IMG/VR virus record: IMGVR_UViG_3300023179_000130
Coordinates: 1 to 56,446 of that record
Length of the DNA: 56,446 bases
From: a virus
Strand: one strand, 5' to 3'
Below are positions 44,099 to 50,134 of this stretch, piece by piece. Within the stretch, counting starts at the first letter, position 1. Each line of letters begins with the position of its first letter. The notes under the pieces were generated by a model that searched no databases, was not told where the DNA came from, and saw only the letters and a list, made by a program, of their open reading frames with translations. A program made the translations under genes and the position numbers.

Positions 44099-44554
44099 AT
44101 GGAAAGACATAAATATTCAGTCGATGATTTAAAAAATGCTGTTAAAAATTCTCGTTCTATAGCTCAGGTTTTAGATAAGCTTGGTATTGTTCCAGCAGGA
44201 GGGAATTATCAAACGGTTAAAAGAAGAATAGCTAAATATAATATTGATACTTCTCACTTCGGAGGACAATCTTGGAATAAAGGACAAATTACTGGCCCTA
44301 AAAAACCTATTAACTTTTATCTCACTAAAAATTCTGTTGTTCAGAGTTTTAAACTCAAGAAACGATTGTTATCTGAGAATATTTTTCAGCATAAGTGTTG
44401 TGAGTGTCATAAAACTAAATGGCTAAATCATCCTATTCCTTTAGAATTGCACCATATTGATGGGGATCATTACAATAATGAACTATCAAATTTAACTTTA
44501 CTTTGTCCTAACTGTCATGCTTTAACTGATAATTATCGTGGGAAAAATAAGTAG
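44099..44554 (+). CDS. HNH homing endonuclease, plus strand
   Basis: This 151-residue protein has an N-terminal helix-turn-helix (YSVDDLKNAVKNSRSIAQVL, LGIVPAGGNY) and a C-terminal HNH nuclease: HKCCECHKTKW, ELHHIDGDHYNNELSNLTLL and CPNCHAL. The start has AAGGAG five bases upstream of ATG. Its stop TAG overlaps the 3' end of tRNA-Leu. It lies between the tRNA and a promoter and is the opposite of all surrounding genes, as expected of a freestanding homing gene. Confidence 0.92.
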   Translation: MERHKYSVDDLKNAVKNSRSIAQVLDKLGIVPAGGNYQTVKRRIAKYNIDTSHFGGQSWNKGQITGPKKPINFYLTKNSVVQSFKLKKRLLSENIFQHKCCECHKTKWLNHPIPLELHHIDGDHYNNELSNLTLLCPNCHALTDNYRGKNK

Positions 44555-44832
44555 GAGCAGAGGGGATCGAACCCTCACTGTATGGATTTTCGTACTACTA
44601 TAACTTTCGTTACCATTGCTGTTTGTAGTCTGGACTTTACCTTAACCATAGTTTTCACTTTAGGTTCCTGCCGTCAAGTCTCTACACCTTCATAATATTT
44701 CTATTAAGCTTGGCTCGGTATTAGCAGTTAAGCCTTCACCGACTTTGACAGGTTCTACATTAAAGATTTCTCCTTATGCACTCAATTTAACGAAAAAAGT
44801 CCACTGCCTCTGCCTAATTGGGCTATGCTCCC
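44552..44832 (-). tRNA. trnL-UAA: tRNA-Leu(UAA) with group I intron
   Basis: The 5' exon (44832-44797) has acceptor GGGAGCA, the TA pair, a D arm GCC/GGC with GG in the loop, and anticodon stem GTGGA ending CTT. The 3' exon (44590-44552) starts AAAATCCAT, pairing with GTGGA, then a five-base variable loop, T arm GAGGG-TTCGATC-CCCTC, and acceptor TGCTCCT. Joined, the loop is C-U-U-A-A-A-A, so the anticodon is UAA. A leucine tRNA normally has a long variable arm, which is absent here. No CCA is encoded. Confidence 0.85.
44591..44796 (-). other. Group I self-splicing intron in tRNA-Leu
   Basis: This 206-base insertion lies between U34 and A35 of the anticodon, the position of the cyanobacterial and plastid trnL(UAA) intron. 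It ends in G and starts after U, as group I introns do. Bases GAGTGC within it can pair with exon GGACUU (P1, with G-U at the splice site). GTAGAGACTTGACGG and GGTAAAGTCCAG give P7 pairing GACTT/AAGTC, and ACCGAGCCAAGC is a Q-like element. No homing ORF lies inside it. Confidence 0.85.
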
Positions 44833-44851: not shown

Positions 44852-44880
44852 ATCATAACGATTGATTAGATGTTTGTCTA
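44852..44880 (-). promoter_or_regulatory. Promoter of tRNA-Leu
   Basis: Minus strand: TAGACA (44880-44875), 17-base spacer, TATGAT (44857-44852), each one mismatch from consensus. The predicted start is about 13 bases before the tRNA 5' end. Confidence 0.72.
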
Positions 44881-48689: not shown

Positions 48690-49031
48690 CTATTTACGAT
48701 TTGGTCTTGAAAGAAAATAATTCATAGCGTTAGTGATACCTCTTATATTATCACCCAACTTACCTATACCAGTATTACAAGGTTCACACAAAAATCCTCT
48801 AAAACTATTATCACTATGATCATGATCCAAACACCATTTATATGGTATTTTCCCGCAACATTCACAAACTTCTGGCTTAGGAGGAGCTTCTTTATGAAGT
48901 TTATTTCTTATTTTAGATTGTTTCTTAACACATTTTCTACATCTACTATCCAGATTATCTTTGTACATACTATGCTTGGGAAAACTTGCTTTGTTCTTCC
49001 TTTTCCCACAATATTTACAAATTTTTCTCAT
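48690..49031 (-). CDS. Recombination endonuclease VII-like nuclease
   Basis: This 113-residue protein has zinc-binding CKYCGKRKNKASFPKHSMYK, then CRKC and CECCGKIPYKWCLDHDHSDN, and FRGFLCEPCNTGIGKLGDN. The C-x-x-C ... D-H-D-H ... F-R-G-x-L-C-x-x-C-N pattern is typical of T4 endonuclease VII/HNH proteins. Freestanding proteins of this kind resolve branched DNA or act as homing nucleases. It lies between ligase and tmRNA and runs in their direction. Confidence 0.88.
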   Translation of the reverse strand: MRKICKYCGKRKNKASFPKHSMYKDNLDSRCRKCVKKQSKIRNKLHKEAPPKPEVCECCGKIPYKWCLDHDHSDNSFRGFLCEPCNTGIGKLGDNIRGITNAMNYFLSRPNRK

Positions 49032-49040
49032 AATATTAAG

Positions 49041-49390
49041 TGGAGGCGGGCGATTCGACTCGCCGTCTTGCGATAATTTTGATAATATTTTCTACAAGTT
49101 TAGTTCTTTGTTAATTATAGATGGTTTGAACAAAGAACAAATCTTTCCACCTATTTCAACTAATCTTAACTAGAACCAGTTGAGTCATTCTAGAGCAGAG
49201 GGATTTGGCGACAGATTTTTGATCGCTACCCTCATTCGCAATCGCAATCTGTTGTTGCCTATTTAATTAGGCAGCAAGGGCTAACTGTGTTTCGCCAGTT
49301 AAAGCGTTTAATCCTGTTTTAAAGTAGCCGCAGGATCAACTACTACTTGCTTATATAATCTTCATTATCCAATCGATACATTTCGCCCCC
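49041..49390 (-). ncRNA. ssrA: Transfer-messenger RNA (tmRNA)
   Basis: The 5' end GGGGGCGAAATGTATCGATT and the 3' end (ACGGCGAGTCGAATCGCCCG, then CCTCCA) form the tRNA-like domain. GGGGGCG pairs with CGCCTCC, and the T arm GGCGA/TCGCC is present. Internally the tag ORF at 49296-49267 encodes G-E-T-Q-L-A-L-A-A followed by TAA. That stop sits in a hairpin GCCTA/TAGGC as in bacterial tmRNA. No CCA is encoded. It would rescue stalled ribosomes and tag proteins for degradation in the host. Confidence 0.9.
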
Positions 49391-49597: not shown

Positions 49598-50134
49598 TTA
49601 ACTATTTTCCATAAGATATCTTTGCCATCCCATAACTATACCGCTTGCTGTTCCAACATTTAAAGATCTAACACTTCCATATCCAGGTATTGTCATAATA
49701 TAATCAACTTGCTCTAAAATAGTATTATCTAATCCAGAATTTTCTTCTCCAAATATAAAAATAGTATTTTGTATATATTGACGATAATCATATAAATTTA
49801 TTGTTTTATAATCAAATTGAGGTATATTGTTTTCTATACCAATTAAACAACAATCTTTAGATTTAGCATCATATATAAATTCATCAAAATTTGAATAATG
49901 ATATATAGGAGTGTAGTTGTGAGTTCCAACGCTACCTCTTTTATCCCATCTTTTACTATTAGCTATATGATATACTGATCTAAATCCAAAAAAATTAGCA
50001 TTTCGTACCATAGTACTAAAATTAAAATCGCCACTAATATTAACCATAGCAACACTAGCATCTATAGTATTAGTTGTGCAATAATCTTTTATTTCTTCAA
50101 CAGATAGTTTTTTAAGTTCATCTACAACATTCAT
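49598..50134 (-). CDS. SpoU/TrmH-family RNA 2'-O-methyltransferase
   Basis: This 178-residue protein has the SPOUT knot. VAMVNISGDFNFSTMVRNANFFGF is motif 1, TIFIFGEENSGLDNTILEQVDY is motif 2, and IPGYGSVRSLNVGTASGIVMG is motif 3. Such enzymes methylate ribose of tRNA or rRNA. As a phage gene beside tmRNA and not far from tRNA-Leu, it may modify phage or host tRNA. Its exact target is unknown. Confidence 0.9.
   Translation of the reverse strand: MNVVDELKKLSVEEIKDYCTTNTIDASVAMVNISGDFNFSTMVRNANFFGFRSVYHIANSKRWDKRGSVGTHNYTPIYHYSNFDEFIYDAKSKDCCLIGIENNIPQFDYKTINLYDYRQYIQNTIFIFGEENSGLDNTILEQVDYIMTIPGYGSVRSLNVGTASGIVMGWQRYLMENS

Follow-up and report, generated by a model that had tools for sequence, protein, structure and literature searches.

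A 2014 review noted that all group I introns seen so far in phages lay in protein-coding genes, despite the many tRNA genes that phages carry (PMC3984707). Collaborative homing is known from cyanophage S-PM2, in which F-CphI is paired with a psbA intron (PMC6083498), and has been discussed for ICP1 (PMC10448857). Our search of the open-access literature turned up no account of introns in phage tRNA-Leu genes, of a family of short-armed host tRNAs, or of an HNH partner, and the intron type, insertion site and homing scheme described below are each of an already known kind.

Here we analysed 56,446 nucleotides of viral DNA (IMG/VR record IMGVR_UViG_3300023179_000130, the whole of which we call the window), in which a tRNA gene is interrupted by a group I intron and adjoined by a putative HNH endonuclease gene (Table 1). 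Our best overall reading, to which we assign a probability of about 0.85, is a self-splicing intron in a working short-loop tRNA-Leu(UAA), with charging by the host LeuRS and homing linked to the HNH gene. One scan yielded at least 54 distinct phage tRNA-Leu introns. Group I introns are thus common in phage tRNA genes, in contrast with the 2014 review (PMC3984707), which makes these genes an overlooked niche for mobile elements of this sort. The deposited tRNA-Arg of Microcoleus phage My-WqHQDG, at 286 bases, also looks intron-containing. The intron core apparently occurs in other phage tRNAs at six loci (L064, L044, L062, L043, L045 and L056), which ARAGORN calls Arg(UCU), Lys(UUU), Thr(UGU) or Met(CAU), with tentative junctions. 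The same core was seen in phage protein genes (L050, part of L008-L127, and L004 2001-2119), the last being Pelagibacter phage HTVC120P, where it lies between two ORFs both annotated as capsid protein.

Table 1. Positions of the tRNA-Leu(UAA) locus, its intron helices and other genes in the window.
Feature	Position	Strand	Evidence or remarks
Intron-containing tRNA-Leu(UAA) gene	44552..44832	-	Five-base variable loop (ACAGU); A73 at 44552; CCA not encoded
5' exon of tRNA-Leu(UAA), last base U34	44797..44832	-	Empty-site alleles agree
3' exon of tRNA-Leu(UAA), first base A35	44552..44590	-	
206-nt group I intron lacking an ORF; last base G (44591)	44591..44796	-	RF00028 52.6 bits and covariation
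Internal guide GAGUGC	44778..44783	-	P1 with exon GGACUU (44802-44797); U.G at splice site; one G.G mismatch
P3 3' strand GGCAGG	44667..44672	-	Partner CCUGUC 44752-44747; double-sided changes at 4/6 pairs among relatives
P7 3' strand AAGUC	44633..44637	-	Partner GACUU 44680-44676
P9 3' strand GUAGU	44594..44598	-	Partner ACUAC 44629-44625
TATGAT, putative promoter -10	44852..44857	-	About 20 bases upstream of tRNA; aligned by eye; putative function
HNH endonuclease gene, 151 aa (CxxC, HHIDGDHYNN, CPNCH)	44099..44554	+	phrog_10822 1.2e-46; motif conservation
Endonuclease VII-like ORF	48690..49031	-	Directly 3' of tmRNA; Pfam PF02945; conserved in relatives
Phage tmRNA gene	49038..49390	-	RF00023 82 bits, full model; tag by eye ALTGETQLALAA-stop
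SpoU-family RNA methyltransferase	49598..50134	-	Nearest RlmB/TrmH, below cut-offs

Alleles of the locus and the HNH gene

Mapping of the exons and intron, together with syntenic empty sites, bore out the initial annotation of a tRNA split by 206 bases after U34 of an anticodon that reads UAA once joined, as well as the terminal G of the insertion. The joined exons form a 75-nt tRNA that folds as a cloverleaf with a five-base variable loop. In an alignment made by eye, the flank holding the putative promoter element is conserved among relatives.

Presence of the intron and of the HNH gene varied across related phages. We gathered relatives through the neighbouring RIIA gene, and 51, including the window, have a tRNA-Leu(UAA) upstream of RIIA. 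The short-armed alleles comprised 20 without an intron, 14 with an intron and four with both intron and HNH gene; the long-armed alleles comprised six without an intron, six with one, and one with the HNH gene but no intron. The spliced product of L500, which has a 202-nt intron, matches the intronless L531 tRNA at every base (74/74), and that of L524, an allele with intron and HNH gene, is likewise matched exactly by the intronless tRNAs of L555-L557. L531, L500, L524 and the window have homologous flanks on both sides. Since related phages have, at this locus, an intronless tRNA identical to the spliced product, we regard the splice junction as proven. The distance from the tRNA to the next gene was 520 nt in HNH-bearing alleles versus 12-47 nt in the others having that gene, and in two alleles (L566 and L529) a short stretch after the tRNA resembles, by eye, the end of the HNH gene, of which it is apparently a remnant. 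On the RIIA tree, which serves as a phage tree although RIIA may itself recombine, the intron required 11 changes, tRNA class 10 and the HNH gene five. Both intron and HNH gene come and go among close relatives, and a single locus with empty, intron and intron-plus-HNH alleles offers a ready system for testing intron spread. Comparison of the window with phage records gave no near match, and its RIIA and RNR showed only a distant relation.

The HNH gene, which the initial annotation had passed over, is convergent with the tRNA gene, and its stop codon overlaps the last three tRNA bases. We name it HNH on the basis of its PHROGs match and motif conservation, with the CxxC, H119, N127 and CxNCH residues kept in 13 homologues. 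Pfam returned no family for the ORF, PDB sequence and fold searches with the protein returned no significant match, and AlphaFold2 gave a confident C-terminal domain. Elsewhere in the window are a tmRNA gene, which ARAGORN did not find, an Endonuclease VII-like ORF and a SpoU-family methyltransferase (Table 1). F-CphI-type homing enzymes have an Endonuclease VII-like motif too. We do not propose that the SpoU methylase modifies wobble position 34 in the manner of TrmL, as it fell below all cut-offs and was closer to RlmB/TrmH.

HNH homologues were associated with intron-bearing tRNA-Leu genes. Among the matches listed, a homologue lay within 1 kb of 17 of the 54 distinct phage tRNA-Leu introns versus none of 236 intronless tRNA-Leu genes (113 short-armed and 123 long-armed). 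Shared descent among the HNH loci means that the corresponding Fisher p-value (3.7e-14) overstates the association. In the phage group to which the window belongs, there were only five independent contrasts, too few for the sign test to reach significance. Some homologues followed the tRNA, in one orientation or the other, and others preceded it or were encoded within the intron; most phage tRNA-Leu introns had no HNH gene nearby. We note that L005, a 595-kb phage, and L421 and L475, both Bacilli MAGs, encode a member of the window's HNH family inside tRNA-Leu introns of ~680-700 nt. Separately, an HNH homologue (44%) lies beside an intronless long-armed tRNA-Leu (L559, 7030-7653), the sole such case seen.

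The endonuclease gene lies outside an ORF-less intron yet adjoins it, overlapping the tRNA end by three bases, and we infer collaborative homing as the best reading of this pair. The HNH enzyme would probably cleave tRNA-Leu genes that lack the intron, at the anticodon loop or close to it, after which repair would copy intron, HNH gene and flanking exon sequence together, so that the intron could be both maintained and moved by homing. For HNH-driven homing of this intron, we see roughly even odds. The main competing explanation, whose chances we put somewhat short of even, is that the two do not cooperate: the HNH gene would be a selfish, free-standing element with no more than a preference for tRNA-Leu loci, and the intron would pass by descent or travel with whole tRNA alleles exchanged in ordinary recombination. 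Absence of the HNH gene from many introns, its presence without an intron in L559, the swapping of whole alleles of both tRNA classes at one locus and the non-significant within-group test all fit this explanation, but it sits poorly with the 17/54 versus 0/236 contrast among the matches listed and with the same HNH family residing inside the introns of L005, L421 and L475. As an extension of collaborative homing, we tentatively suggest, with the odds leaning against it, that the intron and external HNH gene could act together as a homing unit whose target, the anticodon loop, is common to two structurally different leucine tRNAs, and in which co-conversion swaps whole tRNA-Leu genes between phages. 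Because co-converted flanks would exchange short- for long-armed genes and back, a selfish element could in that case drive turnover of a phage translation gene.

Structure and covariation of the intron core

By its covariance-model core, P1 U.G pair and terminal G, the 206-nt insertion is a group I catalytic intron, for which self-splicing is predicted. Two of the checks proposed at the outset agree on this. The match to RF00028 extends over the whole model and exceeds the gathering score of 50, although a fast Rfam scan of the entire window missed the intron through its fast filters. To assess covariation, we aligned 29 introns from phage tRNA-Leu genes; across the named helices (P1, P3-P9 and the P9 extension), 96.5% of cells were paired. 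Double-sided changes were observed in 135 cells, versus 46 in shuffles and 4-20 when partners were slid. P3 showed as many as five pair types, and P7, P8 and P9 showed clean compensatory swaps, so that these four helices covary among the related introns. The P1 and P7 pairings first proposed from the window were upheld, P1 with its one mismatch and P7 with a compensatory change from U-A to A-U in relatives, and the P1 U.G pair at the 5' splice site was present in all 29 introns. The intron has a short P5; the IC3 type is small and without P5abcd, with characteristic core details.

A decayed, ORF-less relic in a dead tRNA would be consistent with the lack of an ORF and with the G.G mismatch in P1, but we consider this quite improbable, given that the window preserves every other named core pair, relatives show compensatory substitutions, and both exons retain a perfect cloverleaf and the identity elements.

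Anticodon and leucine identity of the spliced tRNA

Joining the exons produces CUUAAAA, a seven-base anticodon loop with anticodon UAA, the loop size on which the initial annotation had staked its junction. The annotation is tRNA-Leu in Blast relatives of the spliced exons, among them Enterococcus phages and cyanophage P-RSM6 (80% over 75 bases). ARAGORN found no tRNA without introns allowed, and with introns allowed, it found the gene with the junction slid by one base and called it Phe(GAA). Standard tRNA annotation misses or misnames intron-bearing phage tRNA-Leu genes. A class I tRNA-Phe(GAA) with the junction one base earlier (CU/GAAAA) would match that call, the short variable loop normal in Phe tRNAs and the standard Phe anticodon loop, but is very improbable, and UAA is the right anticodon, since the slide would make the intron end in C, all 120 intronless phage tRNAs of the short-loop type found in IMG/VR read UAA, with no G there, under a pattern permitting T or G, syntenic empty-site alleles read CUUAAAA, all 29 aligned introns share the splice-site U.G pair, and A15-U48 is characteristic of leucine tRNAs (PMC9976931). 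Junctions giving Lys(UUU) or an ochre suppressor (UUA) were rejected, as each requires an intron ending in A.

A long variable arm is typical of cytosolic tRNA-Leu. The window tRNA lacks this class II arm, and its loop of five bases, correctly noted from the start, had raised doubt about charging. We find that doubt weakened, as the short loop is normal in a large phage family that keeps the leucine determinants and E. coli LeuRS tolerates loss of the long arm (PMC9976931). Short-armed tRNA-Leu(UAA) is a widespread phage family, with 104 distinct intronless examples. A73 was present in all 104, and the 15-48 pair was A-U in 95 and G-C in six; G18G19 and A20a were built into the search pattern for this set and so provide no independent test. 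A 73-base phage tRNA-Leu(TAA) is also present, without comment, in a cyanophage paper (PMC8557907). The determinants in E. coli are A73, A14, A15-U48, G18G19 and A20a, the long arm not being among them, and E. coli LeuRS still charges tRNA-Leu variants without that arm (PMC9976931). The window tRNA keeps every one of these (A14, A15, U48, A73, and G18G19 and A20a within GGCAGA). Because the E. coli determinants are kept and the long arm is not needed in E. coli, it is likely, judging from these bases, that the tRNA is charged with leucine. UUA is the most used leucine codon of the phage (41% of Leu codons). The finding highlights a large family of phage leucine tRNAs that retain the leucine identity set without the long arm.

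The gene, the junction, the core structure, the identity elements, the empty sites and the association with HNH genes are all seen in the sequences, and we are close to certain of the intron and the tRNA; splicing in vivo, leucine charging and the HNH target are our inferences. The tRNA-Leu(UAA) gene would be transcribed together with the small intron after U34, and the intron would fold with the anticodon stem docked via P1. With an external guanosine, it would then excise itself, leaving a CUUAAAA loop able to read UUA. The host LeuRS would probably charge the spliced tRNA through A73, A14, A15-U48, G18G19 and A20a, none of which needs the long arm.

Ancestry of the intron and comparison with known systems

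Placement of the intron among its relatives suggests membership of a wider family rather than a cyanobacterial source. The proposed tree was built from 111 tRNA-Leu introns, with the root not inferred. Most phage introns formed a supported clade (95/93), with the window inside it, and cyanobacterial trnL introns formed a separate clade (100/100). The intron was at first placed at the trnL(UAA) position, with either shared ancestry or independent gain considered. The site holds, being the same position between U34 and A35 of tRNA-Leu(UAA), and the intron is, by site and tree, assigned to the wider trnL(UAA) family, excluding the cyanobacterial lineage. On this placement, it was not recently acquired from cyanobacteria, and an unrelated intron is unlikely to have reached the site independently. 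Phage introns of this family occur in tRNA-Leu genes with short as well as long arms, and the tree requires seven changes of the short-arm label. The sister of the window intron (100/98) is in L040, a related phage with the same locus and a long-armed tRNA. Either the intron moved or whole tRNA alleles were exchanged; both could account for this pairing.

The closest introns are those of LR756501 (a 735-kb phage), Agrobacterium phage Atu_ph07, LR756511 and IMG/VR contigs, which have the same insertion site and core. Identity of the window intron reaches 97% with syntenic relatives and 80% with LR756501. Unlike in the window, the host tRNA-Leu of LR756501, Atu_ph07 and LR756511 is long-armed (class II), and LR756511 carries its HNH gene inside the intron, whereas that of the window lies outside. 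The cyanobacterial and plastid trnL(UAA) intron (IC3 type) shares with the window the site after U34, the core motif and small size, but its host tRNA is long-armed and its introns fall in a separate clade. Proteobacterial tRNA group I introns have the core motif in common with the window, and alphaproteobacterial and plasmid tRNA-Leu introns occupy the same site; they lie apart from the main phage clade, and their host tRNA-Leu genes were all long-armed in our sample. As a side observation, an E. coli IncF plasmid (LR890662.1; L006, 2001-2215) carries, ~0.7 kb away from aac(3)-IId, a tRNA-Leu(UAA) gene with an intron that clusters with alphaproteobacterial introns, which hints at where that DNA came from. 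Related partial matches were found in more than 1200 plasmids.

The arrangement of intron and nuclease resembles that of F-CphI and psbA in S-PM2, of T3/T7-like phages and of the ICP1 terminase, where an ORF-less group I intron is likewise paired with an endonuclease gene outside it (PMC6083498, PMC10448857). In those pairs the target is a protein gene, whereas in the window it is a tRNA gene, with an HNH nuclease and predicted cleavage.
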